Positions 3,401 through 62,457 of a DNA stretch of 64,000 bases are shown here, in pieces. A program made the position numbers and the translations under genes. Source of the stretch: Halichondria panicea (taxonomy: Eukaryota > Porifera > Demospongiae > Suberitida > Halichondriidae); contig NC_087379.1 of the NCBI RefSeq assembly GCF_963675165.1, positions 1,554,201 through 1,618,200 on the forward strand. Reading direction: 5' to 3'. The first letter of the stretch is position 1, and every line of letters begins with the position of its first letter. The notes beneath the pieces are model-generated. The model was not told the DNA's origin, made no database searches, and worked only from the letters and a program-made list of their open reading frames with translations.

Positions 3401-4328
3401 CCAGTCCCTACAGGTTCAGTTGTCCTACAGTCAGTGCTCTGAGGCTCCAGTGGAGATGTCTGAAGGACACGCGGTAACCATCAATGGCAAGGTCTACTAT
3501 GGTGGAGGAGACTGTGATGACGATGATGACAAGTACTGTGTCCACTGTTACGATCCGCCACAACACGTCTGGTCAACTCTGCCCAGACTTCCTGTACGCT
3601 ATTTTGATCTAGGAGAGGTCAAAGGTGAACCGGTAGCAGTTGGAGGTGTGGATTCATCCTACTCTGTATCCAACGTGGTACATGTGTTTAACAAAGGAAG
3701 GAACTGGAAACTGACAATCCCACCTATGCCCACAGCGAGGTATTCACCAGCAGTCATTAGTCTCCCAACACATCTGGTCGTAGCAGGAGGTAAAGTGGGC
3801 ATATTAGGCTACACTGATAATGTTGAGATCTACAACATCAATACCTCCCAATGGAGCGAGGCAGACAGACTACCGTATGCTTGTCGTGACCAAAGAGGAA
3901 TTGTCTACAACAACACAGTGTACCTAATGGGAGGATTTGACGGCAACAATCTAAGTAAGGTGTGTGCTGCTCAAGTCGACAAGCTCATCTCAGCAGACCG
4001 ACAGGATGATAAGAGTGCCAACAAAGCCGACTCTGTCTGGAATACAATATCCAACACACTGTCTTACTGGCCCTCCCCTGTAACGATATCCGACACCCTC
4101 TTTGCTGTTGGTGGAGAGGATAGTGAAGGTGAAGCCACTCAAAGGATCTACGCCTACTCATCCTCGATGGACTCCTGGCTCTACGTTGGTGATCTACCAT
4201 CTCCTATAGCACACGCTGCCACTGTGTCACTGTCTCGAACAGAGTGCCTTATGATTGGGGGGTTGAACGATAACTTTGAAAAACAATCTACTGTGTATAG
4301 AATGACTACCACAACAGCTATTTCTTGA
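416..4328 (+). CDS. Kinase-kelch gene copy 1: TK-like kinase, coiled coil, six-blade kelch propeller
   Basis: Two coding exons, 416-1900 (495 codons) and 3405-4328 (307 codons plus TGA), joined in phase 0 as CAG/GTGAGC...TTCTCCAG/TCC; about 802 residues. Start chosen at ATGGCTGTA because the upstream in-frame ATG at 353 lies in the intron before the acceptor at 404. Kinase motifs: glycine loop LGHGSYAVV (23-31), lysine K44, helix-C E65, HRDLSVNN (141-148), DLG (161-163), PPE (189-191). Residue 145 is Ser where Ser/Thr kinases have Lys, so substrate class is uncertain. Residues about 295-490 are Glu/Lys/Gln-rich coiled coil. The kelch exon has six GG-ending strands and an Asp-rich loop in blade 1. 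No signal peptide or membrane span, so probably cytosolic. Its 1.5 kb intron carries a transposon (2103-2970). The function is inferred: ligand sensing by the propeller with kinase output. Confidence 0.85.
2103..2970. mobile_element. Inverted-repeat DNA element in the kinase-kelch 1 intron
   Basis: Both ends carry long imperfect inverted repeats with many copies of GCCAATG and TGACCTTTGACC, for example about 2107-2230 against about 2815-2965. The matching intron of copy 4 (about 37420-37445) reads straight through from CTTACTGTT to CCCATTGTAG, so this is a filled site against an empty site. The flanks TACTGTTC and TATTGTTC suggest an 8 bp target duplication with one mismatch. No transposase is visible, so it is non-autonomous. 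Boundaries are good to a few bases. Confidence 0.75.
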
Positions 4329-4495
4329 TAATTATTGTGGTGGTATGATGTTTTGTATGACATGTTGATACATGCATGTAATTGTTTTCTTCAGTAAAAC
4401 ATGAAAAGTGTGTATATATGTAGCCAGCCCCTCCCCCTTATAAGACTGTCTGATTGCAATGTCAGCATAAACGACCCTCTTCCAGCTCATGCCGG

Positions 4496-7760: not shown

Positions 7761-8208
7761 ATGATCCCTCTATACTGGAATTGACTTATCGTTTACCATG
7801 CAGTTATCTTATTTTTTATTGACTGACTTGCAAATTAATTAATAACGGACGACTGACTATAATCAGTGCCCATTATAATTATATACTATCCATATGCATG
7901 ATTGAACAGGGCAAATCGAATTGAAGTACTGACAATTATAATTATGTTGATACGTTCACTTTCATCATAATTAATAATTAATTACGAACAGATTAGAGAG
8001 AGATATTATATAATTATGATCATGAACTACAGTATGTGAAATTAATATAATGGTTCAAAATTCTTAGCTTTCGTCTCCTCGTCCTTGGTTGCCATACATG
8101 CATGAGTTGATCTGATTGGGCAGATTCAGAACGAGAGGAGCAGCTAACACCTCCCTGCAGCTGATATTGCAACCAATAAAAGCATTTAACATAATTATTG
8201 TTAATTAT

Positions 8209-8537
8209 ACCTTTCAAAATGGAGAGAGAAATGCCTGTATACGCATTGTTCCAGGAACTACAACAGTTTGTGAGAAAATGCGTTTATTATACCTTTCAAA
8301 ATGGAGAGAGAAATGCCTGTATACGCATTGTTCCAGGAACTACAACAGTTTGTGAGAAAATGCGTTTATTATACCTTTCAAAATGGAGAGAGAAATGCCT
8401 GTATACGCATTGTTCCAGGAACTACAACAGTTTGTGAGAAAATGCGTTTATTATACCTTTCAAAATGGAGAGAGAAATGCCTGTATACACATTGTTCCAG
8501 GAACTACAACAGTTTGTGAGAAAATGCGTTTATTATG
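8209..8537. repeat. Four tandem copies of an 82 bp unit derived from a CWF19L1 exon
   Basis: The unit begins ACCTTTCAAAATGGAGAGAG and recurs every 82 bases near 8209, 8291, 8373 and 8455 with almost no divergence (one G-to-A change in the last copy). The paralogous place in copies B to E (for example about 41040-41110) has a single copy. 82 is not a multiple of three, so the expansion breaks the reading frame. Confidence 0.9.
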
Positions 8538-8599: not shown

Positions 8600-8600
<1 letters not shown>

Positions 8601-16070: not shown

Positions 16071-18600
16071 ATGGCTGTAAATCCACAAGCTTTCGAGCAG
16101 TTCACTCTGAGACAAGTTCGCATCACTGAGAATGAGTTTGGACATGGTTCCTACGCTGTTGTCATGGAGCTAGAGTATCGAGGACTGAAATGTGCCGGCA
16201 AGAAGCTTTACCGAGTTCTCTACGAGACTGGAATCGGGCATGCAGCACGAAGGTATCTGGAAGAGTGTCACCTGCTCAGTCAAACTAGGCACCCCAACAT
16301 TGTCCAGTTTCTGGGAGTTTGTTTTGAGGAAGGCTCTCAGTTCCCCATCTTAGTCATGGAGTTCCTTCCCACCAACTTGACCAGCTGTCTCGAGCGCTAC
16401 GGTATTCTCCCCGATGAGATCAACTTCTCCATCCTCCATGACGTCTCACTGGGCCTGGTCTACCTCCATGGCCAAACACCAGTCATTGTGCACAGAGACC
16501 TCTCAGCCAACAATGTTCTCTTGTCCACCAACATGACGGCCAAGATATCCGATCTGGGGGTTGCTCGAATATTGAACCTGACCCCCCTTCAAGTGAGTCG
16601 AATGACGGAGACCCCTGGCACCCCAGCGTATATGCCCCCCGAAGTGATGGTTGCCAACCCCCACTACAACACCAGTGTGGATGTGTTCTCCTTTGGGATC
16701 ATGATGATTCACACCTTCACAGCACAGTGGCCACTACCAAGTATCGGCCCCACCAGAATCGATCCTGCTAATCCTGACAGACTGATACCAGTAACGGAAG
16801 CTGAACGACGTGAAGAGTTTCTTCGAAAGATTTCCCCAGACCACCCTCTGATGGACCTCATCATGCGCTGTCTCAGCAACAACCCTCAGCGAAGGCCTAG
16901 AGCAGCGGAGATAGTGGGTCGGATGGTGGGTGTGGTACTTGAACACCCTCCCTCCTTTGAGAACAGAGTGGAGATGCTCCAGCGAGTGAGTGCCCTACTG
17001 ACAGAGAAGAGGGAGCTTGAGGAGGAGGTTGTGAGGAAGGACTTAGCAATCCAGGAGAAAGCAGGAGAGATCGAGGCACTGGCGGAGGAGAAAAGACGAC
17101 AAGAGGAAGAAAGTGAAAACACTGTCGAGCGTATGCAGTTGGTGCACTCTGTGGAAACTGATCAACTAGTAACTGAACATAGTGTAGAGAAAGAGGATCT
17201 CAGAGTTGAATTGGAGCAACAAATTGCAGAAAAAAATTTGACTATCGTTCACAAAGATTCGATGCTTGCCTCCAAGGACACTTCCCTTCAGAAGAATAAA
17301 GCCACCATTCAGAGTTTAAACAACCAGCTCACCAAAACCAGAGACTACCTGACCAGCAAACCACAGGTGAGCTCCTACATCTAATAAGCATACGCACATC
17401 TAAAATTGTATTGCTTATAGTCCATTTAATGTTCCAATTGAACTCCTGCAAATTATTTTTTGCGATGCATCGGTAATTCCTCAAAGTTGTTAATGTGTAC
17501 TCATGCATTTGTGACTATATGTAACTAATACAGCTAGTCACCACTCCAATATAAGCTCTAAATTGTGTCCCCCAGGTTGTTATAGTTTTATTGCCATGGT
17601 AACCTTGTAGCATTGTTAACATGTGATTAGGGTTAATTACATGCAACACAAGTTATTGACTCTCTGTATTCTCCAGTCCCTACAGGTTCAGTTGTCCTAC
17701 AGTCAGTGCTCTGAGGCTCCAGTGAAGATGCATGGTGGACTAGCGGTAACCATCAATGGCAAGGTCTACTATGGTGGAGGAGTCTGTGATGACGATGATG
17801 ATGACGAGTACTGTGTCCACTGTTACGATCCGCCACAAGACGTCTGGTCAACTCTGCCCACACTTTCTGTACGATGGTTTGGTCTGGGAGAGGTCAAAGG
17901 TGAACTGGTAGCAGTTGGCGGTGTGGATTCATCCGATTCTGCATCCAACGTGGTACATGTGTTTAACAAAGAAAGGAACTGGAAACAGACGATCCCACCC
18001 ATGCCGACAGCGAGGTGTTCACCAGCAGTCGTTAGTCTCCCAACACATCTGGTCGTAGCAGGAGGTCTGGACTTTGGTCCCTACACTGATAATGTTGACA
18101 TCTACAACATCAGCATCTCCCGGCAGTGGAGCAAGACAGACAGACTACCGTATGCTTGTAATGACCAAAGAGGAATTGTCTACAACAACACAGTGTACCT
18201 AATGGGGGGATTTGACGGCAATAGTCTAAACAAGGTGTGTGCTGCTCAAGTCGACAAGCTCATCTCAGCAGACCGACAGGATAATGGGAGCGCCAACAAA
18301 GCCGACTCTGTCTGGAATACAATATCCAACACACCGTCTTACCAGCCCTCCCCTTTAACGATATCCGACACCTTCTTTGCTGTTGGTGGAGTGGATAGTG
18401 AAGATGAAGCCACTCAAAGGGTCTACGCCTACTCATCCTCGATGGACTCCTGGCTCTACGTTGGTGATCTACCATCTCCTATAGCACACGCTGCCACTGT
18501 GTCACTGTCTCCAACAGAGTGCCTTATGATTGGTGGATGGAACAAAGGGAAAACACAATCTACCGTGTATAAAATTAGTATCACAGCAACTATTTCTTGA
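16071..18600 (+). CDS. Kinase-kelch gene copy 2
   Basis: Exons 16071-17366 (432 codons) and 17677-18600 (307 codons plus TGA); about 739 residues. Kinase motifs as in copy 1: glycine loop HGSYAVV, AGKK lysine, HRDLSANN, DLG, PPE. The coiled coil is about 60 residues shorter than in copies 1, 3, 4 and 6: after VHSVETDQLV it runs directly into an EKEDLRVELEQQIAEKN segment shared with copy 5. Kelch surface residues differ from the other copies: GGL before the blade 1 strand, RWFG in blade 2, C in blade 3, ND in blade 4, YQ in blade 5, H in blade 6. The blade 1 loop has six consecutive Asp. If the intron after the kinase exon is retained, the protein ends VSSYI. All motifs are intact and both splice sites are canonical. 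Confidence 0.85.
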
Positions 18601-26311: not shown

Positions 26312-29300
26312 ATGGCTGTAAATCCACAAACTTTCGAGCAGTTCACTCTGAGACAAATTCGCATCACTGAGAATGAGTTGGGACATGGTTCCTACGCTGT
26401 TGTCATGGAGCTAGAGTATCGAGGACTGAAATGTGCCGGCAAGAAGCTTCACAGAGCTCTGTACGAAGCTGGAATCGGGTATGCAGCACGAAGGTATCTG
26501 GAGGAGTGTCACCTGCTCAGTCAAACTAGGCACCCCAACATTGTCCAGTTTCTGGGAGTCTGTTTTGAGGAAGGCTCTCAGTTCCCCATCCTAGTCATGG
26601 AGTTCCTCCCCACCAACTTGACCAGCTGTCTCGAGCGCTACGGTATTCTCCCCGATGAGATCAACTTCTCCATCCTCCATGACGTCTCACTGGGCCTTGC
26701 CTACCTCCATGGCCAAACACCAGTCATTGTGCACAGAGACCTCTCAGCCAACAATGTCCTATTGTCCACCAACATGATGGCCAAGATATCCGATCTGGGG
26801 GTTGCTCGAATATTGAACCTGACCCCCCTTCAAGTGAGTCGAATGACAGAGACCCCTGGCACCCCAGCGTACATGCCCCCCGAAGTGATGATTGCCGACC
26901 CCCACTATGACACCAGTGTGGATGTGTTCTCCTTTGGGGTCATGATGATTCACACCTTTACAGCAGAGTGGCCACTACCTAAGATCGGTCCCAACAGAAT
27001 CGATCCTGCTAATCCCAATGGTCTGATACCAGTAACGGAAGCTGAACGACGTGAACATTTTCTTCGAAAGATTCCCCCAGACCACCCTCTGATGGACCTC
27101 ATCATGCGCTGTCTCAGCAACAACCCTCAGCAAAGGCCTAGAGCAGCGGAGATAGTGGGTCGGATGGTGGGTGTGGTACTTGAACATCCTCCCTCCTTTG
27201 AGAACAGAGTGGAGATGCTCCAGCGAGTGAGTGCCCTACTGACAGAGAAGAGGGAGCTTGAGGAGGAGGTTGTGAGGAAGGACTCGGCAATCCAGGAGAA
27301 AGTAGGAGAGAACGAGGCACTGGCGGAGGAGAAAAGACGACAAGAAGAAGAAAGTGAAAACACTGTCGAGCGTATGCAGTTGGTGCACTCTGTGGAAACT
27401 GATCAGTTTAAATTGGAGATTGAAAATCTTAAAGGTCAACTCGAAGATAAAGAGACAATTGTTAACACAAAAGATGCATTTATCTTCTCCAAAGATGCTA
27501 GGATTACTGAGGTAGAAACTCGATGTAAGCAACTCACTGAAGAGGTGGAGCAACAAATTGCCAACGTCAACTACACTCACAACGAGCTTGTATCTAAAGC
27601 TACGAAAATAGCTCAACTAGAAACAGATGTCACCAATCTCACTGCACAAGTGGAACAAGAGCAAGCTTGTTTAGCTGACAAAAACTCTATTATCACCCAC
27701 AATAACTTGACTATCGCTCATAAGGCTTCGATCATTGCCTCCAAGGACACTTCCCTTCTAAAGAATAAAACCACCATTCAGAGTTTAAACGACCAACTCA
27801 CCAAAACTAGAGACTACCTGACCAGCAAACCACAGGTGAGCTCCTCAACACTGTACCACTAACTGATATGATACTGAGTATACCATCGCCACCCTAATAG
27901 AAGTAATAGCCTCAAAAATTTCGCGCTTGCGATATTATAATTATTTCCACCCTAATTATGCCTCGAGGCGTAGCCGCACGAGGGATACGGTAAAGCTGAC
28001 TGTGTGTGTGTGTGTGTGTCTGTCTGTGTGTCTGTTCCAGCTGTAACTGCTCAACGGTTGCAATGCGACGAAAGCTAACAGCTTCTATAGGCTTCTAGCC
28101 ACGTTCTCTTGGATTTTGATTCGTGGATTAGCAAACTAAAGCTTCTTTCTTGAGTTATGGCTAGTTTGACTCACATTGAAGGCTGTTGCAGTCTCTTCAA
28201 AATCTTTCATAACATCATCTATCCGCACAAACTTCCTATTTAACATTAGCCTCGATCCCAGGCCGCACTTCCCGCTAGGGAAGTGGGCCTGGTATCGACT
28301 GCTTGCGCATGCGCTAATATCCCCCCGGTATCTGGGGGCTTTGGATAACATCGTTTATGCTCAGTAAAACTATGACATCACAACAAAAGGAAGTGGATTG
28401 AAGGAAGTAGATAGAAAGTTCGATTGAAGGTTTCTAGCCCATCGGATAGCATTCTCTGATAGCTACCCTTAGCCTGCTATGTTAACAAAAGACTCACAGC
28501 CTGCAACAGTGTGGATGACGATCGTCTGAAAGGAGTGACGGCTGATAAGAGCCTATATGGACAGGCCACGCCCATTTAACACTAACTTTGGTGAAAGTCT
28601 ACTATACTACTGCTACTGATTCTATCAGAAGAAAATAGCAGTACAACAAACCTACACAGCTCTGTTTCTAGCTAGCTAGCTATATAGCTCTGTGCATGAC
28701 TTTTAGAATATTTTCTCTGATGTATCCAGTATTATAGAAATATTTACGGGTAAAAAATCCAATATTATAGTATTATAGAAATATTTACGGGAAAAAAATC
28801 CAATAATTTGGCGCATGCGCAAGCAGTCGATAGCAGGCCTTCTTTCAAAGGCCGGTGAAGGAGGCTAATTCAACATATGAGTTAGCCTTGCACTAAAGCG
28901 CTAGCTTTTTGTTAGCTACAATACTTAGAAAATATCTGTTAAAACAGCTAGCTAGCAGTAGCCATTGATCTCTTTGGACACACCCTTTAATTATTCCTAT
29001 GGATGTAATGCGCATGCGCGCTCATTCCCCAGAGAAATAATAATAATCCAAGATCCAGATCCTCCTGGCAGAATCATCTTTGTCTTGAAGGCCTGGTAAG
29101 CCACAAAACACTACCATATAACAATATAGATAACAATATGCATGTACACAGGTCTTTTCTTCTTGCATATTATATACACTGAACTACAGATCCTGGAAGA
29201 ACCAATTTTCTTCTTTCTTGAGGTCCTAGTAAGCCACATAATACAACAATAGATGCATGTAAATAAGTTTTTTCTTCTCAGTGACTTTATATAGATAAGT

Positions 29301-30802
29301 TAACTTTAATATAAAATTCATTATAGAAACTAATATTAATAACACTCTAATACTTTTCAGCGAAAGCAAAAACATGGCGAGAGGCATTAGCACAGCGCCA
29401 GCTTAAACTAATTCAAGGAAGTACCAAGTTCATTCTAAAGCTATTACTGTTCCAATTGAACACTAAGTACATTCTAAAAATTGTTTTTGCGATGCCTCGG
29501 TAATTCGAAGCAAAGTTGTTGTGTATTATAATGTGGGTTGTAATCAATGCACGTACACATCTGTGAATATAATTATTTTGTCACAGTAATCACCACTCCA
29601 ATAATAAGTGTCAAATAGTGTCCCATAGGATTATTTTGTTGATATGGTGTTGCTACGGTAATCTTATCATCTGATGTTAACAAAGCGTACCAGGACATGC
29701 ATATCATACACTCCTGAACGTATGTACCATAGAACGCTACATACAAACTGCTTACATTCCTAAATGTTCCGAGTGATCGTACATGATTAGAATGAATATT
29801 TTCCTGTAAATAATAATTTAAGGCTAAAATAGATTTGTCGTCTTAATATCAAAATGTCTGCAACACAAGTTATTGACTCTCTGTATTCTCCAGTCCCTAC
29901 AGGTTCAGTTGTCCTACAGTCAGTGCTCTGAGGCTCCAGTAAAGATGTCTCGTGGGCGAGCGGTTACCATTAATGGCAAGGTCTACTATGGTGGAGGAGT
30001 CTGTGGCGATGACTACTGTATCCATTGTTACGATCCGCCACAAGACATTTGGTCAACTCTGCCCAGACTTCCTGTACAAGGTTTTGGTCTAGGGGAGGTC
30101 AACGGTGATCTGGTAGCAGTTGGCGGTATGGATTCATCTGGCTATCCATCCAACGTGGTACATGTGTTTGACAAAGAAAGGAACTGGAAACAGACGATCC
30201 CACCCATGCCCACAGCGAGGTGTTCACCAGCAGTCATTAGTCTCCCAATACATCTGATCGTAGCAGGAGGTGTGGTCCCTGGTGGCTACACTGATAATGT
30301 TGAGATCTACAACATCAGCACCTCCCAGTGGAGCGAGACAGACAGACTACCGTATGCTTGTTCTGCCCAAAGAGGAATTGTCTACAACAACACAGTGTAC
30401 CTAATGGGGGGATTTGACGGCTATAATCGAAACAAGGTGTGTGCTGCTCAAGTCGACAAGCTCATCTCAGCAGACCGACAGGATGATGGGAGTGCCAACA
30501 AAGCCGACTCTGTCTGGAATACAATATCCAACACACCGACTTACCAGCCCTCCCCTGTAACGATATCCGACACCCTCTTTGCTGTTGGTGGACTGGATAA
30601 TGAATATGATTTCATTCAAAGGATCTACGCCTACTCATCCTCGATGGACTCCTGGCTCTACGTTGGTGATCTACCATCTCCAATAGCATTCGCTGCCACT
30701 GTGTCACTGTCTCCAACAGAATGCTTTGTGATCGGGGGACTGAACAATGGAAGACAATCTACCGTGCAAAAAATTAGTATCGCAACAACTATTTCTTTAT
30801 AA
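26312..30802 (+). CDS. Kinase-kelch gene copy 3
   Basis: Exons 26312-27835 (508 codons) and 29894-30802 (302 codons plus TAA); about 810 residues. Kinase motifs intact (HGSYAVV, AGKK, HRDLSANN, DLG, PPE), with a few private changes (HRALYEAG after the lysine, SLGLAYLHG before HRD). Long coiled coil with the block ARITEVETRCKQLTEEVEQQ. The blade 1 loop is short (GVCGDDYC) because the Asp run is contracted. Surface residues: RGR (blade 1), QGFG (2), C (3), SA (4), YQ (5), F (6). The separating intron is 2.06 kb and carries repeat R with a nested transposon, against about 230 to 1500 bases in the other copies. It has no DNAJC25 passenger downstream; CWF19L1 copy B begins about 200 bases after its stop. 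Confidence 0.85.
27955..29404. repeat. Dispersed repeat R, copy 2, inside the kinase-kelch 3 intron
   Basis: Colinear with 20630-21473 from TTATGCCTCGAGGCGTAGCC to GCATTAGCACAGCGCCAGCTT, apart from the element at 28247-28867. Its presence in one kinase intron only shows insertion after that gene copy formed, or loss from the others. Confidence 0.75.
28247..28867. mobile_element. TAGCCTC-family element nested in repeat R
   Basis: Ends TAGCCTCGATCCCAGGCC and, inverted, TAGCCTCCTTCACCGGCC. A subterminal inverted pair (ATCGACTGCTTGCGCATGCG) follows. The 9 bp target ATTTAACAT / ATTCAACAT flanks it (28238-28246, 28868-28876), and repeat R copy 1 has the empty site TATTCAACATATGAG (near 20920). 9 bp targets are typical of Mutator-like elements. 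No transposase is encoded in its 621 bases. Confidence 0.85.
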
Positions 30803-35704: not shown

Positions 35705-38561
35705 ATGGCTGTAAATCCACAAGCTTTCGAGCAGTTCACTCTGAGACAAGTTCGCATCACTGAGAATGAGTTTGGACGAGGTTCCTACGCTGTTGTCATG
35801 GAGCTAGAGTATCGAGGACTGAAATGTGCCGGCAAGAAGCTTTACCGAGTTCTCTACGAGACTGGAATCGGGTATGCAGCACGAAGGTATCTGGAGGAGT
35901 GTCACCTGCTCAGTCAAACTAGGCACCCCAACATTGTCCAGTTTCTGGGAGTCTGTTTTGAGGAAGGCTCTCAGTTCCCCATCCTAGTCATGGAGTTCCT
36001 CCCCACCAACTTGACCAGCTGTATTGAGCGCTATGGTATTCTCCCCGATGAGATCAACTTCTCCATCCTCCATGACGTCTCACTGGGCTTGGTCTACCTC
36101 CATGGCCAAACACCAGTCATTGTGCACAGAGACCTCTCAGCCAACAATGTCCTCTTGTCCACCAACATGACGGCCAAGATATCCGATCTGGGGGTTGCTC
36201 GAATATTGAACCTGACCCCTCTTCAAGTGAGTCGAATGACAGAGACCCCTGGCACCCCAGCGTACATGCCCCCCGAAGTGATGATTGCCGACCCCCACTA
36301 TGACACCAGTCTGGATGTTTTCTCCTTTGGGATCATGATGATTCACACCTTCACAGCAGAGTGGCCACTACCAAAGATCGGCCAGACACGAATCGATCCT
36401 GCGAATCCTGACAGACTGATACCAGTGACGGAAGCTGAACGACGTGAACATTTTCTTCGAAAGATTTCCCCAGACCACCCTCTGATGGACCTCATCATGC
36501 GCTGTCTCAGCAACAACCCTCAGCGAAGGCCTAGAGCAGCGGAGATAGTGGGTCGGATGGTGGGTGTGGTACTTGAACACCCTCCCTCCTTTGAGAACAG
36601 AGTGGAGATGCTCCAGCGAGTGAGTGCTCTACTGACAGAGAAGAGGGAGCTTGAGGAGGAGGTTGTGAGGAAGGACTCGGCAATCCAGGAGAAAGCAGGA
36701 GAGAACGAAGCACTGGCGGAGGAGAAAAGACGACAAGATGAAGAAAATGAAAACACTGTCGAGCGTATGCAGTTGGTGCACTCTGTGGAAACTGATCAGT
36801 TTAAATTGGAAAATGAATATCTTAAAGCTCAACTCGAAGACAAAGAGACAATTGTTAACATGAAAGATGAATCGATTCTCTCCAAAGATGCTAGGATTAC
36901 TGAGGTAGAAACTCAATGTAAACAACTCACTGAAGAGGTGGAGCAACAAATTGCCAACGTCAACTACACTCACAACGAGCTTGTATCTAAAGCTAAGAAA
37001 ATAGCTCAACTGGAAACAGATGTCACCAATCTCACTGCACAAGTGGAACAGGAGCAAGCAGACAAAAACTCTATTATCGCTCACAAAGATTCCACTATTG
37101 CTGTCAAAGATTCAATGCTTACCTCCAAGGACACTTTCCTTCAGAAGAATAAAACCACCATTCAGAGTTTAAACCACCAACTCACTAAAACCAGAGACTA
37201 CCTGACCAGCAAACCACAGGTGAGCTCATCAACACTGTACCACTAAGTGCACACATCTAAAATATGATACCCTCATGTCTCTTATTATATCGCTACCCCA
37301 ATAGAAGTACCAAGTCTAAGCTTATAATGAATTGATGGCCATGCAAGAAAAACTGTGTTGTAATGCAGCGTGTAATCCAGGGTATGTGTTCAATTGATTC
37401 TACCTTTAGTTAGTACGTCACTTACTGTTCCCATTGTAGTGAGCCACACGCATATCTCCTATTGCCACCCTAATAGAAGCTAGTGCCAAGTCTAGAGCTT
37501 ACTGTTATTGAAAGCCAAATAATTTTTTTTGTGTGATGCCTCGATAATTAGAATGACAGTTGTTGTGTATTATAGTGTGGCTTGTAATCTATGTGTACAA
37601 TCTCAGCCTGGAAGCTATCCGTACATGTATGTCTATGTGTACAATTAATTCTATAGCTAATTAGCCGTGTACCAAATTGTGATTTATTCTGTTACAGTAT
37701 ACTAATCACCACTCCAATATAAGAGCCAAATTAGAATAGTTTGTGTCCCACAGTATCGATACTGGTTTTGTTGCTATGGTAACCTTGTAACCTTATCGTC
37801 TGGCATTAACATGTGTTATGGTTATTCCAAATTCCCTTATTTAATAGACCATTATTCATTACATGCAACACAAGTTATTGACTCTCTGTATTCTCCAGTC
37901 CCTACAAGTTCAGTTGTCCTACAGTCAGTGCTCTGAGGCTCCAGTGAAGATGTCTTATGGGCGAGCGGTAACCATCAATGGCAAGGTCTACTATGGTGGA
38001 GGAATCTGTGATGACGATGATGACGAGTACTGTGTCCACTGTTACGATCTGCCACAAGACGTCTGGTCAACTCTGCCCAGATTTCCTGTACACTATTTTG
38101 GTCTAGGAGAGGTCAAAGGTGAACTGGTAGCAGTTGGCGGTATGGATTCATCATTCTCTAGATCCAATGTGGTACATGTGTTTAACAAAGGAAGGAACTG
38201 GAAACGGACGATCCCACCCATGCCCACAGCGAGGGATTCACCAGCAGTCGTTAGTCTCCCAACACATCTGGTCATAGCAGGAGGTGATGTGGGCTCTGTT
38301 AGGATCACTGATAATATTGAGATCTACAACATCAGCACCTCCCAGTGGAGCGAGACAGACAGACTACCGTATGCTTGTTATGACCAAAGAGGAATTGTCT
38401 ACAACAACACAGTGTACCTAATGGGGGGACATGACGGCAAGAATCTAAACAAGGTGTGTGCTGCTCAAGTCGACAAGCTCATCTCAGCAGACCGACAGGA
38501 TGATGGGAGTGCCAACAAAGCCGACTCTGTCTGGAATACAATATCCAACACACCGTCTTAA
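35705..38561 (+). CDS. Kinase-kelch gene copy 4, truncated in kelch blade 5
   Basis: Exons 35705-37219 (505 codons) and 37899-38561; predicted about 725 residues. Kinase motifs intact, with RGSYAVV in the glycine loop. The kelch exon is open for four blades and then has TAA at 38559-38561 where the other copies have a Tyr, Asp or Cys codon. The same frame continues without further damage to TGA at 38802-38804 (about 301 kelch codons in all), so this is one nonsense change. Downstream, a 12-base in-frame deletion removes the acidic loop after blade 5. Surface residues: YGR (blade 1), HYFG (2), D (3), YD (4), S (6). The alternative acceptor CTACAG is CTACAA here. Product: kinase with an incomplete propeller, or a young pseudogene. 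Confidence 0.8.
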
Positions 38562-38804
38562 GCGCCCTCCCCTGTAACGATATCCGACACCCTCTTTGCT
38601 GTTGGTGGAGTGGAAGCCACTCAAAGGGTCTACGCCTACTCGTCCTCGATGGACTCCTGGCTTTACGTTGGTGATCTACCATCTCCTATAGCAAGCGCTG
38701 CCACTGTGTCACTGTCTCCAACGCAGTGCCTTATGATTGGGGGATTTAACAATGGAAGACAATCAACTGTGTATAAAATTAGTATCACAACAAAACTTTC
38801 TTGA
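38562..38804 (+). pseudogene. Remaining in-frame kelch sequence after the stop in copy 4
   Basis: Encodes the end of blade 5 and blade 6 (ISDTLFAVGG, PIASAATVSL, CLMIGG) in the same frame as the upstream exon. It would be translated only by readthrough, or if the TAA is a sequence error. Deletion of four codons relative to copy 2 between VGGV and EATQR. Confidence 0.75.
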
Positions 38805-44894: not shown

Positions 44895-47454
44895 ATGGCT
44901 GTAAATCCACAAGCTTTCGAGCAGTTCACTCTGAGACAAATTCGCATCACTGAGAATGAGTTTGGACATGGCTCCTACGCTGTTGTCATGGAGCTAGAGT
45001 ATCGAGGACTGAAATGTGCCGGCAAGAAGCTTTACCGAGTTCTCTACGAGACTGGAATCGGGCATGCAGCACGAAGGTATCTGGAGGAGTGTCACCTGCT
45101 CAGTCAAACTAGGCACCCCAACATTGTCCAGTTTCTGGGAGTCTGTTTTGAGGAAGGCTCTCAGTTCCCCATCCTAGTCATGGAGTTCCTCCCCACCAAC
45201 TTGACCAGCTGTCTCGAGCGCTACGGTATTCTCCCCGATGAGATCAACTTCTCCATCCTCCATGACGTCTCACTGGGCCTGGTCTACCTCCATGGCCAAA
45301 CACCAGTTATTGTGCACAGAGACCTCTCAGCCAACAATGTCCTCTTGTCCACCAACATGACAGCCAAGATATCCGATCTGGGGGTTGCTCGAATATTGAG
45401 CCTCACCCCCCTTCAAGTGAGTCGAATGACGGAGACCCCTGGCACCCCAGCGTACATGCCCCCCGAAGTGATGGTTGCCAACCCCCACTACAACACCAGT
45501 GTGGATGTGTTCTCCTTTGGGATCATGATGATTCACACTTTCACAGCAGAGTGGCCACTACCAAGTATCGGCCCCACCAGAATCGATCCTGCTAATCCTG
45601 ACAGACTGATACCAGTAACGGAAGCTGAACGACGTGAAGAGTTTCTTCGAAAGATTTCCCCAGACCACCCTCTGATGGACCTCATCATGCGCTGTCTCAG
45701 CAACAACCCTCAGCGAAGGCCTAGAGCAGCGGAGATAGTGGGTCGGATGGTGGGTGTGGTACTTGAACACCCTCCCTCCTTTGAGAACAGAGTGGAGATG
45801 CTCCAGCGAGTGAGTGCCCTACTGACAGAGAAGAGGGAGCTTGAGGAGGAGGTTGTGAGGAAGGACTCAGCTATCCAGGAGAAAGCAGGAGAGAACGAGG
45901 CACTGGCGGAGGAGAAAAGACGACAAGATGAAGAAAGTGAAAACACTGTCGAGCGTATGCAGTTGGTGCACTCTGTGGAAATGAATCAACTTGTAACTGA
46001 ACATAGTGTAGAGATAGAGGATCTCAGAGTTGAATTGGAGCAACAAATTGCATACAAAGATTCCATGCTTGCCTCCAAGAATACTTCCCTTCAGAAGAAT
46101 AAAACCACCATTCAGAGTTTAAACGATCAGCTCACCAAAACCAGAGACTACCTGACCAGCAAACCACAGGTGAGCTCATCAACACTGTACCACTAAGTGC
46201 ACACATCTAAAATAATTATGATACCCTCATATCTCTTATTGTATCACTAATAGTAGTGCTGTAAGTCCGTTAATATTCCAATTGAACGCCAAGTTATGCT
46301 GTAAATTGTTTTTTGTGATGCCTCGGTAATTCGAATAATGCTGCTTTGTTATGTAATCACCACTCCAATATATAAGCGCCAAATTCTTGTGTCCCACAGG
46401 ATACGATACTTATACATTATATAAGTTTGTGTTGCCATGGTAACCATGTAGCATTGTTAACATGTGGTTAGGGTTACATTCCAAATGTTCCAAATCACAT
46501 GCAACACACAAGTTATTGACTCTCTGTATTCTCCAGTCCCTGCAGGTCCAGTTGTCCTACAGTCAGTGCTCTGAGGCTCCAGTTATGTATTGTGGACACG
46601 CGGTAACCATCAATGGCAAGGTCTACTATAGTGGAGGAGCCTGTGATGACGATGAGGATGACGAGTACCGTGTCCACTGTTACGATCCGCCACAAGACGT
46701 CTGGTCAACTATGCCCATACTTCCCGTACGCTATTTTGGTCTAGGAGAGGTCAAAGGTGAACTGGTAGCAGTTGGTGGTAGGGATTCTTCCGACTCTAGA
46801 TCTAACGTGGTACATGTGTTTAACGAAGGAAGGAACTGGAAACGGACGATCCCACCCATGCCCACAGCAAAGAGTTCACCAGCAGTTGTTAGTCTCCAAA
46901 CACATCTGGTCGTAGCAGGAGGTCTGTTGGTCTCTGGTGGCTACACTGATAATGTTGAGATCTACAATATCAGCACCTCCCAGTGGAGCGAGATAGACAG
47001 ACTACCGTATGCTTGTGCTTTTCAAAGAGGAATTGTCTACAACAACACAGTGTACCTAATGGGGGGATTTGACCGCAAGAATCTCAACAAGGTATTAGCT
47101 GCTCAAGTCGACAAGCTCATCTCAGCAGACCGACAGGAGGATGGGAGTGCCAACAAAGCCGACTCTGTCTGGAATACAATATCCAACACACCGTCTTGCC
47201 GGCCCTCCCCTGTAACGATATCTGACACCCTCTGTGCTGTTGGTGGAGTGGATAGTGAATATAAAGCCACTCAAAGGATCTACGCCTACTCATCCTCGAT
47301 GGACTCCTGGCTCTATGTTGGTGATCTACCATCTCCTATAGCATTAGCTGCCACTGTGTCACTGTCTCTAACAGAGTGCTTTGTGATTGGGGGGTGGAAC
47401 AAAGAAGGACAATCAACTTTGTATAAAATTAGAATCACAGCAAATATTTCTTGA
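44895..47454 (+). CDS. Kinase-kelch gene copy 5
   Basis: Exons 44895-46169 (425 codons) and 46537-47454 (305 codons plus TGA); about 730 residues, the shortest coiled coil of the array. Kinase motifs intact. The coil has the EIEDLRVELEQQIAYKDS type shared with copy 2. Start taken 11 bases after the acceptor at 44883; the long in-frame extension upstream is intron. Surface residues: CGH (blade 1), RYFG (2), KS (3), AF (4), CR (5), L (6). Blade 1 ends YSGG rather than YGGG, and DDDEDDEYR replaces the usual acidic loop with its Cys. The segment reads KVLAAQVDK where most copies have KVCAAQVDK. A damaged copy of the unrecognised tyrosine-motif gene follows, not DNAJC25 or CWF19L1. Confidence 0.85.
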
Positions 47455-49291: not shown

Positions 49292-51994
49292 ATGGCTGTA
49301 AATCCACAAGCTTTCGAGCAGTTCACTCTGAGACAAATTCGCATCACTGAGAATGAGTTTGGACATGGTTCCTACGCTGTTGTCATGGAGCTAGAGTATC
49401 GAGGACTGAAATGTGCCGGCAAGAAGCTTTACCGAGTTCTCTACGAGACTGGAATCGGGCATGCAGCACGAATGTATCTGGAAGAGTGTCACCTGCTCAG
49501 TCAAACTAGGCACCCCAACATTGTCCAATTTCTGGGAGTCTGTTTTGAGGAAGGCTCTCAGTTCCCCATCCTAGTCATGGAGTTCCTCCCCACCAACTTG
49601 ACCAACTGTCTCGAGCGCTACGGTATTCTCCCCGATGAGATCAACTTCTCCATCCTCCATGACGTCTCACTGGGCCTGGTCTACCTCCATGGCCAAACAC
49701 CAGTCATTGTGCACAGAGACCTCTCAGCCAACAATGTCCTCTTGTCCACCAACATGACGGCCAAGATATCGGATCTGGGGGTGGCTCGAATATTGAACCT
49801 GACCCCCCTTCAAGTGAGTCAAATGACGGAGACCCCTGGCACCCCAGCGTATATGCCTCCCGAAGTAATGATTGCCGACCCCCACTACGACACCAGTGTG
49901 GATGTGTTCTCCTTTGGGATCATGATGATTCACACCTTCACAGCAGAGTGGCCACTACCAAAGATCGGCCAGACACGAATCGATCCTACCAATCCCAATG
50001 GTCTGATACCAGTGACTGAAGCTGAACGACGTAAACATTTTCTTCGAAAGATTCCCCCAGACCACCCTCTGATGGACCTCGTCATGCGCTGTCTCAGCAA
50101 CAACCCTCAGCGAAGGCCTAGAGCAGCGGAGATAGTGGGTCGGATGGTGGGTGTGGTAGTTAAACACCCTCCCTCTTTTGAAAACAGAGTGGAGATGCTC
50201 CAGCGAGTGAGTGCCCTACTGACAGAGAAGAGGGAGCTTGAGGAGGAGGTTGTGAGGAAGGACTTGGCAATCCTGGAGAAAGCAGGAGAGAACGAGGTAC
50301 TGGCGGAGGAGAAAAGACGACAAGAGGAAGAAAGTGAAAACACTGTCGAGCATATTCAGTTGGTGCACTCTGTGGAAGCTGATCAGTTTAAATTGGAGAT
50401 TGAAAATCTTAAAGGTCAACTTGAAGATAAAGAGACAATTGTTAACACAAAAGATGAATTTATTCTTTCCAAAGATGCTAGGATTACCGAGGTAGAAACT
50501 CGATGTAAGCAACTCACTGAAGAGGTGGAGCAACAAATTGCCAACGTCAACTACACTCACAACGAGCTTGCATCTAAAGCTACGAAAATAGCTCAACTGG
50601 AAACAGATGTCACCAATCTCACTGCACAAGTGGAACAAGAGCAAGAAGAAAAAAACTCTATTATCACCCACAAAGATTTTACTATTGCTGTCAAAGATTC
50701 AACAATTGCTCACAAAGATTCGACTATTGCTCACAAAGATTCGATGCTTGCCTGCAAGGACACTTCCCTTCAGAAGAAAGAAGCCACCATTCAGAGTTTG
50801 AACGACCAGCTCACCAAAACTACAGACTACCTGACCAGCAAACCACAGGTGAGCTCATCAACACTGTACCACTAAGTGCATGCACATATCTGTACCATCG
50901 TATCTCTTATTGTATCCTAATGTGCCTAATCTATCAATTGAACTTAAAGTTATTCTGAAATGATTTTTTGTGATGCCTCGGTAATTTGTCAAAGTTTTGT
51001 GTATTGTAATTATAATGGACTATTATGTTATACACAGTTTACAACACACAAGTTATTGACTCTCTGTATTCTCCAGTCCCTACAGGTTCAGTTGTCCTAC
51101 AGTCAGTGCTCTGAGGCTCCAGTGAAGATGAATGTTGGGCGAGCGGTAACCATCAATGGCAAGGTCTACTATGGTGGAGGAGCCTGTGGTGACAATGATG
51201 ACGAGTACTGTGTCCACTGTTACGATCCGCCACAAGACGTCTGGTCAACTCTGCCCAGACTTCCTGTGCGCTATTTTGGTCTAGGAGAGGTCAAAGGTGA
51301 ACTGGTAGTAGTTGCCGGTATGGATTTCTCTCTCTCTGTATCCAACGTTGTACATGTGTTCAACAAAGGAAGGAACTGGAAACGGACAATCTCATCCATG
51401 CCCATAGCAAGAAGTTGGCCAGCAGTCTTTAGTCTCCGAACACATCTGGTCGTAGCAGGAGGTCGGTTGGTCTCTGGAGGCTACACTGATAATGTTGAGA
51501 TCTACAACATCAGAACCTCCCAGTGGAGCGAGACAGACAGACTACCGTATGCTTGTTATGACCAAAGAGGGATTGTCTACAACAACACAGTGTACCTAAT
51601 GGGGGGACATGACGGCAAGAATCTAAACAAGGTGTATGCTGCTCAAGTCGACAAGCTCATCTCAACAGACCGACAGAATGATGGGAGTGCCAACAAAGCC
51701 GACTCTGTCTGGAATACAATATCCAACACACCGTCTGACCGGCCCTCCCCTGTAACGATATCCGACACCCTCTTTGCTGTTGGTGGACTGGATAGTAGAT
51801 ATAAAGCCACTCAAAGGATCTACGCCTACTCATCCTCGATGGACTCCTGGCTCTACGTTAGTGATCTACCATCTCCTATAGCACAAGCTGCCACTGTGTC
51901 ACTGTCTCCAACACAGTGCCTTATGATTGGGGGATTTAAGAATGGTAGACAATCTACTGTGTATAAAATTAGAACTGCAACAACTATTTCTTAA
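49292..51994 (+). CDS. Kinase-kelch gene copy 6
   Basis: Exons 49292-50848 (519 codons) and 51077-51994 (305 codons plus TAA); about 824 residues, the longest of the array. The intron is only 228 bases. Kinase motifs intact, with private changes RMYLEE, QVSQMTE and RRKHF. The coiled coil ends in a tandem run of 21-base units encoding TIAHKDS (about 50664-50755). Surface residues: VGR (blade 1), RYFG (2), RSW (3), YD (4), DR (5), Q (6). Blade 2 reads VVVAGMD instead of VAVGG, so one of the kelch glycines is lost. Blade 3 begins SSMPIARSWP instead of PPMPTARxSP. It is followed by CWF19L1 copy D on the opposite strand. Confidence 0.85.
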
Positions 51995-52954: not shown

Positions 52955-55900
52955 AGGGGGAGGGAATGTGGGTGTAGCAGATTCTGGCAAAGAGAAGTAT
53001 CGATCACTAAAAGGCTTAGCCTCGATTCCAAGCAGCATTAAAATACGGCTATTGCATGGGTGATAGTGCGTGTGCATGCGCTTCAAAATTACCCAGAATA
53101 TGGGTAGTCGTACTACGAATGTAAAATCTTAGTAATTAAATTATACCGTTTACTAAGACGTTTCTTTATCTCCATGACTGAGTTCTGTGAAGCTGTGGCT
53201 TATGTAATTGGTCTTGAACACTAATTTAAAGACAGAAGAGACTCTCATCTACTACGTCTAGGATGGTCCTATAGCTCTTCACAAGTAGCAGTTAAGAGGC
53301 ACCATACACTTCCCATAGCCTGTACAGATCCAAGGTAAGACATCTTAACCATACAACCATCATAGAGGTACAGTAGATGAGAGCCTCTTCTGACTTTAGA
53401 CTAGTGTGAAAGCCTTCTGAAACAACGCAATACTAAGATACAATGTGTGTGCAGGGAATGTACATAGATAGAAAATAGATGAGAGAAAAAAAGGAGATTC
53501 TGGTGAATAAATGCGCACTATCACCATGCAATAGGTACCAGGCCGTATTTTAATCGGCCTGGAATCGAGGCTATAAAAGGCTTAGAGAATGGTACGTAGA
53601 ACATGGTACAGCTATGATGTGTGTGTGTTACCTCTGAGGGTGGTGTTTCCCTGGGCACAGTTTCAAGCAACACCCCATACTCCGCCCATAATCTATGAAG
53701 GCTTGTCAGAGCATCAGATGGAATCTTGGTCACTGGAATAACCTACAGTGACCACCATTACCATCACACACTAACCATACACAACTATCAGTCAACACAT
53801 CTACCATACACACACTAACATGTACCGTATTTATACAATGTTTCCACATAATTATGTAAGTTTGCGAATGCTAATGGCTTCACAAAATAAGATTGCAAAG
53901 ACCTATACTGGTACTTGAATGACATCACGATTTTTGCTAGATGGTCTCTTTTAAAACCGTTGAAATTGATTACACAGAATTCAAGTTATGGCAGCTGAAA
54001 GAGTCCCTGAACCAGATTAAAAAGAGAAAACACATTCCTCTGTTTACCCTCAAAACATTGTAGCCTAATCTCAACACACCAACCATACAGTATCAATCAC
54101 ATCACATGATAATACGGCCTTGACGGTACTGACCTGTAGTAAGTTAAAGATGTTGTGATTCGTAGTTTCTCTCGAAGATGACACATGACTGATCTTTGCT
54201 GTTGAAGTACTTCCTCAGAGCACTCTTAAACTTTCCAAGCTCCTCCAAAACCTCCTACAGTAATAGAGCACAGGTCATACAGTGTACATGCATGATATAT
54301 GGTATAGTTATCTCTGCTTACAGAGTGGGCAGACCAACAGTGGCTGTACTAAAGAGGGTCTGCTAACACAGGTCCAAACACATGCCATAGAGACTTTGGG
54401 GCCCATTAACCTGGCTGTATTATAGAGGGTGGCCTGCTTACAGGCTGACCACTACAGACTGCTAAATAGTACACACAGAGCATGGAAACATACTCTCCAC
54501 AATACAAACAATGACTATACACACACAGCAGTGGTACACACAGCACATGAACTCACTGGTGGTGCGTCAGTGGAGGCTGCATAGTGACCGATGGGTAGGA
54601 CCAGCACATGCTCTGGTACCATCCCACCCTTGGATAAAGCCAGGTATGTCTATATAGGGTATACAATACAAACTGTTAGTGGTCTGCTATTTGTGAGCTA
54701 CATTGTAGTTTGTATGTGCAGTATTAGCAAGTACAACACACTCTATCTCACATGATCTCCGATGGAGACCACGAGATGTTTCTCCGCCTCCTTGCCCCCC
54801 AGACAGAACCAGCACGGCCCCCTGGGCTGGGGAGGGGATCGTCTCTTTTCAGGGGGTCCTCTGTCTTGTCGTCTCTTCTGTTTGCGATGAGCTGAATGAA
54901 GAGCCCTCTGGTCAAAGAAGAAGTTAGGCCCAGCCTCCTCTTGAGACTCCCTCTGCACAGTGTGTGGGAGTAGGTACACAATAAACTTTGACCTCTGCAA
55001 ACATAGTGGATTTGAACTACAACGCAATATGGTGATATCTAGAGATAGGACTCTCAGAGTGATACATAACGCAAGTTTTTGTTTGGACAATCTACATGTA
55101 TATTGGCCCTTCAACGATAGCTAGACATTATGGGATCATAGTTTTCCTTACCAAAGATTTGACTAGTTCAGTGTAGGGACAGTTGGTGGCAGTGGGTGGT
55201 GCTGAGTCAGCTCTTTCTCGTCCATGGAGCTCATGGGTGTGACAGAGAATGCATACAGGTACTGCAGGTATGAAGATGATGTCATCATTAATAACATGTA
55301 ATACTAATGGGACTAGAATGATTTCAACTCACTCTTTTCTTCTTGTCTGGATTTCCCACTTGAGCCAAAGCTAAGAACCGTGTCACATGATGTGGCTTGC
55401 CTTGGAGGATTTTGTGATTCCTGCATGAAATGAAGCACAATACAGTTAGCATCAAAAGTTGTGGAGGTATTACTGTGTAGGGATTTAAAGATGAGGACAT
55501 GTAACATGTACGTATAATTATAATGAACGGTCAAAACTTTAGTTCCGTTGGTAAATCATAATTCTGATTTTCTGAGAAAGATACATGCACCTTTCAGAAT
55601 GAATAAAAAATGTATACTTATTTTCAGCCTGATTTCCTGTTCTAAATTTGGGACTTGAACGAACTCAGAAAATCAACAGGAGCAGACTCTAGTACTCTAA
55701 TAATATAGGGATGGACGTACTGTACCTGTACGGTATTCTCTCATAGAAGGTTTGGTGTAGAGCTGCAAAATGGTAGCATGGCTTGAGACACATGGCCAGT
55801 TTACTCAGAGGCTTTGCCCCCACTGCACTCAGGTCCAGTCCGTCCTGCATGAGCATAAGGTATTATTAAGGTACTGGTCCATCCTACAATAACTGGGAGC

Positions 55901-58380: not shown

Positions 58381-58382
58381 TA

Positions 58383-59295: not shown

Positions 59296-59306
59296 TAACG
59301 AAGACA

Positions 59307-62300
59307 ATGGCTGTAAATCCACAAGCTTTCGAGCAGTTCACTCTGAGACAAATTCGCATCACTGAGAATGAGTTGGGACATGGTTCTTACGCTGTTGTCA
59401 TGGAGCTAGAGTATCGAGGACTGAAATGTGCCGGCAAGAAGCTTTACCGAGTTCTCTACGAGACTGGAATCGGGCATGCAGCACGAAGGTATCTGGAGGA
59501 GTGTCACCTGCTCAGTCAAACTAGGCACCCCAACATTGTCCAGTTTCTGGGAGTCTGTTTTGAGGAAGGCTCTCAGTTCCCCATCCTAGTCATGGAATTC
59601 CTCCCCACCAACTTGACCAGCTGTCTCGAGCGCTACGGTATTCTCCCCGATGAGATCAACTTCTCCATCCTCCATGATGTCTCACTGGGCCTGGTCTACC
59701 TCCATGGCCAAACACCAGTCATTGTGCACAGAGACCTCTCAGCCAACAATGTCCTCTTGTCCACCAATATGACGGCCAAGATATCCGATCTGGGAGTTGC
59801 TCGAATATTGAACCTCACCCCCCTTCAAGTGAGTCGAATGACGGAGACCCCTGGCACCCCAGCGTACATGCCCCCTGAAGTGATGGTTGCCAACCCCCAC
59901 TACAACACCAGTGTGGATGTGTTCTCCTTTGGAATCATGATGATTCACACCTTCACAGCAGAGTGGCCACTACCAAGTATCGGCCAGACACGAATCGATC
60001 CTGTTAATCCTGACAGACTGATACCAGTGACAGAAGCTGAACGACGTGAAGAGTTTCTTCGGAAGATTCCACCAGACCACCCTCTGATGGACCTCATCAT
60101 GCGTTGTCTCAGCAACAACCCTCAGCGAAGGCCTAGAGCAGCGGAGATAGTGGGTCGGACGGTTGGTGTGGTACTTGAACACCCTCCCTCCTTTGAGAAC
60201 AGAGTGGAGATGCTCCAGCGAGTGAGTGCTCTACTGACAGAGAATAGGGAGCTTGAGGAGGAGTTTGTGAGGAAGGACTTGGCAATCCAGGAGAAAGCAG
60301 GAGAGAATGAGGCACTGGCGGAGGAAAAAAGACGACAAGAGGAAGAAAGTGAAAACACTGTCGAGCGTATGCAGTTGGTGCACTCTGTTGAAGCCGAACA
60401 ACATCAAGCTATCATTGAAAATCTTAAAGGCCAGTTGATTTTCAATCAGGACATGATGGCTAAACTAGAAACTCAATATATACAACTCACTGAAGAGGTG
60501 GAGCAACAAATTGCTCACAAAGATTTGATGCTTGCCTCTAAGGATTCTTACCTTCAGAAGAAGGAAGCCACCATTCAGAGTTTAAACGACCAGCTCACCA
60601 AAACCAGAGACTACCTGACCAGCAAACCACAGGTGAGCTCATCAACACTGTACCACTAAGTGCACACATCTAAAATATCCTTTTTCTTATTTTATCGCCA
60701 CCCTAATTAATAGAAGTGCCAAGTCTGTTCCAATTGATTTTTTTGCATTGTCTCGGTATGAAAATTGCCCTGTACATTATAGTGGCTTGTGTTCGGGGAA
60801 GGGCTATGTGTATTAACAATGGTGTACTCGTTATGTTCTTACGGTATACCATAGAATAAAGAATTGGAAGGAAGTGGTGCACGTGACCATTTAATACACA
60901 GAGGCCTCGAAAACTATCCGCTTTTCGTCATATTTTTGCCGGGTAATTCGCTCGTAATAAGAAAGCTGTGTTTCCCCGAGACATCATCTCCTTCAGCAAT
61001 TACGCCTTATTCTGTGAGCCACGTGTGGTACTAGCTAATGACTAACAACACCCAGTAAAAGGAAACATACACAGTAGAGTTATAAGCTTCAAAGTGATAT
61101 TTTAGGGTCTTTGATTGCTAAACGTGTATATATATAAGCATCTTGAGCATCTTGGTAAAATAGGTATAGATCTTTAAATAGAAGTGAGCTGCACAGAATA
61201 AGCACATCTATACTATAGTGTTTTATTCTCCACAGTGTGTAGAAATAGGCATCAGCTTGGCTACCTCGCAAACCACGCCACTTACAGATGCTTGGCTAAA
61301 GACAGCCTCTATTGAACCGCGGGGAAGAGCGGATGTTCATTCAAGGGTACTTTCGTTTCCAATCCCTCTATTTTTTATCTCTGGGTATAATTATTATACT
61401 AAGCACCTCTAATATAATCTATCTATATAAGCGTCAAATTAGTTCGTATTTGTATCCAAATATATATTTTTTACCGCTATAAAAAATAACTTTGTATCAG
61501 AACTCTGTCATCTGGCAATGCCGTATTCTCCAGTCCCTACAGGTTCAGTTATCCTACAGTCAGTGCTCTGAGGCTCCAGTAGAGATGTATGGTGGACTAG
61601 CGGTAACCATCAATGGCAAGGTCTACTATGGTGGAGGAAACTGTGATGACAATGATGGCATATACTGTGTCCACTGTTACGATCCGCCACAAGATGTCTG
61701 GTTAACTCTGCCTAGACTTCCTGTACACTATTTTGGTCTAGGGGAGGTCAAAGGTGAACTGGTAGCAGTTGGCGGTGTGGATTCATCCCGCTCTATATCC
61801 AATGTAGTACATGTGTTTGACAAAGGAAGAAACTGGAAACGGACGATCCCACCCATGCCCACAGCGAGGTATTCAGCAGCATTTGTTAGTCTCCCAACAC
61901 ATCTGGTCGTAGCAGGAGGTCTGTTAGACTCTGGTGACTACACTGATAATGTTGAGATCTACAACATCAGCACCTCCCAGTGGAGCGAGACAGACAGACT
62001 ACCGTATGCTTGTTTTGGCCCAAGAGGAATTGTCTACAACAACACAGTGTACCTAATGGGGGGACGTGTTGGCAAGAATCTAAACAAGGTGTGTGCTGCT
62101 CAAGTCGACAAGCTCATCTCAGCAGACCGACAGGATGATGGGAGTGCCAACAAAGCTGACTCTGTCTGGAATACACTATCCAACACACCGTCTTACCAGC
62201 CCTCCCCTGTAACGATATCCGACACCCTCTTTGCTGTTATTGGAAAGGATAGTGAAAATAAAACCACTCAAAAGATCTACGCCTACTCATCCTCGATGGA

Positions 62301-62457
62301 CTCCTGGCTCTACATTGGTGATCTACCATCTCCTATAGCATACGCTGCCACTGTGTCACTGTCTCCAACAGAGTGCCTTGTGATCGGGGGACTGAACAAT
62401 GAATGTGAAAGACAATCAACTGTGCATAAAATTAAAAGTGCAACAACCATTTCTTGA
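59307..62457 (+). CDS. Kinase-kelch gene copy 7
   Basis: Exons 59307-60632 (442 codons) and 61534-62457 (307 codons plus TGA); about 749 residues. Kinase motifs intact (GHGSYAVV, HRDLSANN, DLG, PPE). The coiled coil is of a third type, AEQHQAIIENLKGQLIFNQD, not found in the other copies. The intron (901 bases) differs from the others for most of its length, and the sequence just before the kelch acceptor is unique (GGCAATGCCGTATTCTCCAG). Surface residues: GGL (blade 1), HYFG (2), Y with SA (3), FGP (4), YQ (5), Y (6). Blade 5 ends LFAVIGK instead of LFAVGG, so a kelch glycine pair is broken; the loop reads GNCDDNDGIYC. Confidence 0.85.

Follow-up and report, generated by a model that had tools for sequence, protein, structure and literature searches.

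The window analyzed here, a stretch of 64,000 nucleotides from the sponge Halichondria panicea (C3:1554201-1618200; home assembly of 131.5 Mb in 39 contigs), contains seven tandem two-exon genes, all on the + strand, which join a protein kinase to a kelch propeller. Exon 1 (425–519 codons) encodes the kinase and a coiled-coil stalk and has the 3' end CAG|GTGAGC, and exon 2, which follows after an intron of 228–2058 bases that terminates in ...ATTCTCCAG directly before each kelch exon, encodes a six-blade kelch propeller. The kinase and coiled-coil exons, delimited by their donor and acceptor sites, are located at 416..1900 (gene 1; exon end SKPQ, Pfam Pkinase 7.5e-41), 16071..17366 (gene 2; also recognized by Pfam), 26312..27835 (gene 3), 35705..37219 (gene 4), 44895..46169 (gene 5), 49292..50848 (gene 6), and 59307..60632 (gene 7). 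The corresponding kelch exons lie at 3405..4328 (Pfam Kelch_1 1.3e-21), 17677..18600 (locus L009, used for reference numbering; Pfam and codon tests), 29894..30802 (with a near-identical copy at C3:1629043), 37899..38798 (with an in-frame TAA), 46537..47454, 51077..51994, and 61534..62457 (Pfam; near-identical copy at C3:1684092). Kelch_1 was detected with 76–94 bits in all three kelch exons scanned (cut-off 20.1), and Pkinase (140 bits) in both first exons scanned. The coiled-coil stalk (approximately 1310–1900 in gene 1 and the equivalent stretch of exon 1 in the other six) is of unequal length between copies, a difference apparently caused by in-frame repeat units such as the 21-base repeat at 50669-50744.

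The catalytic motifs (Gly loop, Lys, HRD, DFG/DLG, and APE/PPE) are present in all 18 kinase exons examined, and by these motifs the kinases appear active. The nearest solved relatives are TNNI3K and CTR1, followed by WNK3/WNK1 and, at lower similarity, by BIK1, CERK1, RIPK2, TAK1, IRAK1, and others, which suggests a TKL-like kinase domain; TNNI3K, CTR1, RIPK2, IRAK1, and BIK1 are TKL kinases, and WNK3/WNK1 are not. Several of RIPK2, IRAK1, TAK1, BIK1, and CERK1 act in immune signalling. TNNI3K, CTR1, RIPK2, IRAK1, BIK1, and WNK3/WNK1 are nearest to the sponge kinase domain in sequence, and none of them is known to have a kelch propeller. A simple hydropathy analysis of 16 full-length models revealed no signal-like N-terminus (N-terminal maximum 0.18), with a further upstream exon being possible, and the features of a receptor-like kinase (extracellular domain, signal peptide, and transmembrane helix) were not recognized in these 16 models by the same simple means.

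Searches of the home genome yielded family sizes that are lower bounds and include some exact duplicates. With one kelch exon as query, at least 51 full-length exons of the window's family (the C3 family) were found at 77–100% identity, 50 of them on C3 and one on C16, and the kinase exon likewise gave at least 51 full or nearly full matches (89–100%; 50 on C3 and one on C16). A second kelch family (the C1 family) comprises no fewer than 126 members distributed over C1, C6, and C28, whose identity to the reference exon of the window is 29–31% when aligned (30–35% in the search), and a query from C6 added at least seven further members by eye count, one of them with a stop. A single C1 gene that was read upstream shows the architecture of the window's genes, a coiled coil being accompanied by kinase exons (HRDLTARN, DFG). 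Haplotype duplication was ruled out as the source of the copies, which are arranged serially on one contig and differ by approximately 10% of nucleotides among the six intact kelch exons of the window. Very recent segmental duplications, 22–68 kb apart, have produced pairs with identical or near-identical kelch exons, namely C3:1008082 and C3:1030129 (L014 and L015), the exon at 29894 and C3:1629043, and the exon at 61534 and C3:1684092. The second of these pairs, whose partner lies about 45 kb downstream, differs by a single amino acid, at the hypervariable residue following the double glycine of blade 3.

Codon-wise selection was analyzed with a self-written method of the fast unconstrained Bayesian approximation (FUBAR) type (MG94, F3x4, general time-reversible rates, a 16x16 grid, and an IQ-TREE tree), in which codons with a posterior >0.9 for a nonsynonymous rate (dN) above the synonymous rate (dS) were considered selected. 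The C3 kelch set comprised 48 of the 51 exons, leaving out L027 (stop), L015 (identical to L014), and L078 (the 51st exon). The C1 set consisted of 38 distinct exons among 39 fetched from the at least 126 members (L085, identical to L068, was removed), with L063, which has an in-frame stop, retained from after the stop. The kinase set of 18 copies contained the seven exons of the window and 11 of 17 further loci, without L046 and L052 (start pattern missed) and L041, L042, L048, and L056 (no exon through the filter). Diversifying selection was detected at 38 of 303 codons of the C3 kelch exon, 22 of them with a posterior >0.99, and at 39 of 307 codons of the C1 kelch exon, with the reverse (posterior >0.9 for dN<dS) at 90 and 45 codons, respectively. 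In the C3-family kinase exon, one of 442 codons had dN>dS and 93 the reverse. A mixture test without versus with a dN>dS class gave a twofold log-likelihood difference (2dlnL) of 327 for the C3 kelch exon, 255 for the C1 kelch exon, 8 for the kinase exon, and 32.5 for a null simulation. Across 17 genes (136 pairs), dN was 0.071 and dS 0.140 in the kelch exon outside the 48 codons of the top face, 0.034 and 0.133 in the kinase domain, and 0.114 and 0.243 in the coil.

The location of the selected codons was determined in registers numbered from the residue that follows the double glycine, of which six sites occur in the consensus of each of the two families, and the face was assigned by kelch topology. 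Registers -17, -16, and 0 of each blade were defined as the core (18 codons). In gene 1 these codons lie at 3459, 3462, 3510, 3597, 3600, 3648, 3741, 3744, 3792, 3885, 3888, 3936, 4065, 4068, 4116, 4212, 4215, and 4263, and in gene 2, where one is gapped, at 17731, 17734, 17782, 17872, 17875, 17923, 18016, 18019, 18160, 18163, 18211, 18340, 18343, 18391, 18487, 18490, and 18538. The selected codons concentrate in three places: registers -17 and -16, where the chain enters inner strand A; register 0; and registers +2 to +6, which belong to the B-C turn. Thirteen of the 18 core codons are selected in the C3 family compared with 25 of 285 elsewhere, and 14 of 18 in the C1 family compared with 25 of 289; none of 302 (C3) and 306 (C1) circular shifts of the positions matched this enrichment. 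The two families share 18 selected positions among 180 compared, where about 6.6 are expected from the totals (odds ratio 8.6), and after removal of the core registers eight selected positions still agree (odds ratio 6.1). Core residues are often Tyr (17%) and Arg (10%) in the C3 family, versus 5% and 3.5% elsewhere in the exon, and Ser (17%), Arg (9%), and Tyr (9%) in the C1 family. The six-blade combinations of face residues are all distinct (48 of 48 in C3 and 38 of 38 in C1, one exact duplicate having been dropped from each set).

Eight of the nine Keap1 pocket residues listed in PMC7196981 fall on core registers, with S363, N414, S508, and S555 at -17, R415 at -16, and Y334, R380, and Y572 at 0. 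The ninth, S602 in the last blade, has no usable offset because the blade closes across the ends of the domain. The letters of the Keap1 sequence used agree at 27 positions, of which 24 are mentioned in PMC7196981, and L577 of that paper is F in this sequence. The equivalence of the hypervariable positions to Keap1 is right in register.

The original prediction, made from the seven copies of the window, had proposed that the propellers vary almost only at ligand-face positions in front of a nearly constant kinase. The residue strings that it listed for blades 1, 3, 4, 5, and 6 are all present, including the blade 5 stop (TAA) in the exon at 37899. This stop occupies the -17 register, a codon that mostly encodes Tyr across the window's family, and gene 4 is a probable pseudogene. 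The claim that variation is almost confined to the face is too strong: at least three residue types occur in 30 of 48 top-face columns versus 14 of 255 others, an excess beyond chance, but 74 of these 255 columns also vary among the seven copies. Blade 2, which had been omitted, is variable as well (RY, RW, QG, HY, RY, RY, HY), and a second variable ring had been overlooked, made up of the B-C turn and the position behind each double glycine, a position under selection in all six blades. The listed blade 5 pair does vary between copies, but both of its codons fail the cut-off for selection. The proposed match to Keap1 is exact in register for R415, S508, and S555, and S602 gave no offset that could be compared. 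The near-constancy of the kinase domain was borne out by a nucleotide identity of 96.1% among the seven copies and by the low dN over the 17 genes. The per-site dN/dS analysis that had been suggested showed the selected sites to cluster, with 30 of 38 (C3) and 33 of 39 (C1) located in top-face loops, and at the level of sequence the notion of a single signalling module with a diversified face for recognition is supported.

In two kelch families, residues equivalent to the Keap1 pocket are under strong diversifying selection and diverge by point substitution, accompanied by some recombination, which was shown for the window's family. The strands and bottom loops are conserved, as is the kinase, which was tested in the C3 family. 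Selection on the ligand face combined with a constant output (C3 kinase) fits a diversified repertoire of recognition receptors. The genes probably form a germline repertoire of cytosolic receptor kinases in which a conserved output lies behind a diversified propeller face, presumably serving non-self recognition. Each kelch face would bind a different protein or small-molecule ligand, ligand binding would gather the kinases through the coiled coil, and the kinases would then send a single common signal. The ligands may, with less certainty, be non-self in the sense of microbial or allogeneic, because comparable selection for divergence among the members of large tandem families that keep a constant output is familiar chiefly from systems that recognize pathogens or self. 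An immune or self-recognition role is thus suggested by analogy, with non-self recognition as the likeliest use, ahead of substrate diversification and chemosensing.

Several observations weigh against such a repertoire or limit it. Eight of the 38 (C3) and six of the 39 (C1) selected codons lie off the top face, and five of the 18 C3 core codons fail the cut-off, namely both strand A entry codons (-17 and -16) in blade 2 (posteriors 0.76 and 0.89) and in blade 5 (0.17 and 0.70), together with the -16 codon of blade 3. Recombination is detectable in the C3 family (pairwise homoplasy index, PHI; 2 of 500 permutations), and one null simulation with blade-wise recombination and no dN>dS, a single replicate, still returned 11 codons >0.9 and three >0.99, with one of 18 core codons among the calls; the method is therefore liberal, and single off-face calls are unreliable. 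The synonymous rate at the C3 top face is approximately 1.5 times higher than elsewhere (mean alpha 0.66–0.73 versus 0.45–0.49; the excess is smaller in the C1 family, 0.50–0.60 versus 0.44–0.48), so a mutational share is possible, and four-fold sites differ more in core codons (0.139) than in the rest (0.081; 1128 pairs among the 48 C3 exons). Of the 23 replacements that separate the members of the five closest pairs, only seven affect the face. In-frame stops occur in one of the 51 C3 kelch exons, three of the 126 C1 kelch exons, and two of the 51 kinase exons (TGA in both), and some copies are exact duplicates. Three of the 16 full-length models contain 19-residue stretches with a hydropathy mean >1.6 (up to 1.85), 1.6 being the customary cut-off, each inside the kelch domain. 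Finally, the second family shares ancestry with the C3 family, and its faces therefore represent separate diversifications of a common scaffold and not an independent origin.

Among the alternatives, substrate or partner diversification without immunity, in which each face recruits a different endogenous substrate for the kinase to act on in the manner of BTB-kelch ligase adaptors, survives best but is unlikely. It would agree with the recruitment of host proteins by Keap1-type faces, the identical pocket registers, the kinases that appear active by their motifs, and the small share of face replacements in the five closest pairs. However, endogenous substrates are stable and usually select for conservation, the families are large, and in duplicates of somewhat greater age the differences lie largely on the face (9 of 17 replacements in L012/L013, 14 of 24 in L026/L037, and 21 of 34 in L024/L034). 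In nine disjoint close pairs, top-face codons take 68 of 134 replacements and five of 51 silent codons. A rather more doubtful explanation is a repertoire that senses small molecules or serves fertility through the recognition of gametes or larvae: a face lined by Tyr, Arg, and Asp could bind small ligands, but no transmembrane or secreted form was recognized, so that chemicals from outside would be sensed less directly.

Relaxed constraint or mutational hot spots, by which the loops merely tolerate change or mutate more often, could explain why the selected positions are loop ends and why the synonymous rate is modestly raised there in the C3 family. This explanation is nevertheless very improbable. 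Among the six intact copies of the window the core kelch codons retain a nucleotide identity of 62.0%, versus 0.934 in the rest of the exon, 91.4% in the alignable parts of the spacers (24.9 kb, 32 blocks), and 77.7% in the alignable parts of the introns (2.1 kb), and relaxed constraint was rejected on this divergence of the core beyond the spacer and intron yardsticks. At the 48 top-face codons, dN (0.485) exceeds dS (0.311) in the comparison of 17 genes, and, as the original prediction implied, it also exceeds dS in the rest of the kelch exon and in the kinase as well as the divergence of the alignable introns and spacers, while the A-B hairpin and the remaining codons, including the bottom C-D loops, have dN/dS values of 0.29–0.63. 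An artefact of tree-based tests under gene conversion, which could be suspected from the PHI result and the 11 calls in the recombining null, was rejected as scarcely credible, since separate trees for each blade retained 14 of 18 core codons (33 C3 codons passed, 28 of them in common with the single-tree set) versus one in the null, and tree-free distances over the 1128 pairs show the same contrast between core codons and codons outside the 48 of the top face (0.688 versus 0.113 for amino acids, and 0.484 versus 0.058 for codon positions 1 and 2).

The closest system in mechanism to the proposed receptor repertoire is formed by HET-D and HET-E (NWD/HNWD) of the fungus Podospora anserina, in which positively selected residues are located in the d-a loop and b-c turn at the top of a WD40 propeller (PMC1805685). 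In both cases an intracellular receptor combines a signalling part with a beta-propeller, the same two top loops are diversified, and the gene family recombines. HET-D/E differ by their NACHT and HET domains and by WD40 repeats that are nearly the same throughout a gene and are swapped as whole repeats, whereas the sponge genes, which belong to an animal, have kelch blades unlike each other and a TKL-like kinase as output. With Keap1 and the KLHL proteins they share the six-blade kelch domain and the pocket registers, but they carry a kinase where KLHL proteins are ligase adaptors. No match to BTB or BACK, or to NACHT or NB-ARC, was obtained by Pfam in the five exons scanned (two first exons and three kelch exons), and the kinase exon precedes the kelch exon; membership in the KLHL or NLR/STAND families (HNWD included) was rejected accordingly. 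The Keap1 face, in addition, is conserved. Large receptor families with other domains, NLR (NACHT-LRR) and SRCR, are also known from demosponges (PMC12909245, PMC6208332, PMC8242945); neither a kelch-kinase family nor selection at individual sites is described in the available passages of these papers, and the word 'kelch' is absent from PMC12909245 and PMC8242945 and occurs twice in PMC6208332. No description of hypervariable kelch kinases was found in the titles and abstract openings of the mainly open-licence literature searched, and one may be published elsewhere.

On the question of how sponges discriminate between self and non-self and sort the microbes around them, the kelch kinases offer a concrete, numerous, and testable candidate whose specificity positions can be named codon by codon in two families. 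If the proposed role is true, the kelch face, whose most familiar role is that of an invariant reader of degrons, would be usable as a repertoire, and the direct fusion of propeller and kinase would represent an alternative to NLRs. The odds appear evenly balanced that these genes, with at least 177 kelch exons in at least two families of one sponge, constitute a hitherto unrecognized kind of animal receptor, cytosolic and diversified in the germline, for immunity or allorecognition, with the kelch propeller as a six-blade paratope fused directly to a kinase. They would then be the counterpart of the fungal WD40-NLR system, built with another propeller and another output.

Other clusters of related kinases (approximately 36–46% identity) were found at C11:4.4-6.5 Mb, C16:4.0-5.7 Mb, C10:5.5-6.3 Mb, and C1:3.2-5.2 Mb, and some kinases of the C16 cluster lie in open frames of >700 codons. 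These clusters on C10, C11, C16, and C1 may carry other sensor domains.

The spacers of the window contain duplicated exon-like pieces on the opposite strand (32766-33050 and 33670-34020, both -), with similar pieces at 13604-14860, 42577-43700, and 54746-55555. They resemble a splicing-factor gene of the CwfJ/CWF19L1 type, to which one piece was assigned by Pfam (CwfJ_C_1, E 2e-5) and to which the remaining pieces presumably belong by their likeness, and they have been duplicated together with the kinase cassettes. No hit to Rfam was obtained at the gathering thresholds. A tandem repeat in a spacer at 8200-8536 consists of 4.1 copies of an 82-base unit with 99% matches. Elsewhere in the genome, the host is marked as very probably a demosponge by a silicatein-type active-site motif, which has three matches lying together at C2:656915-667884, compared with none in a reversed control, and by an exon that reads ...GDCGASYAFSAMGALEG...

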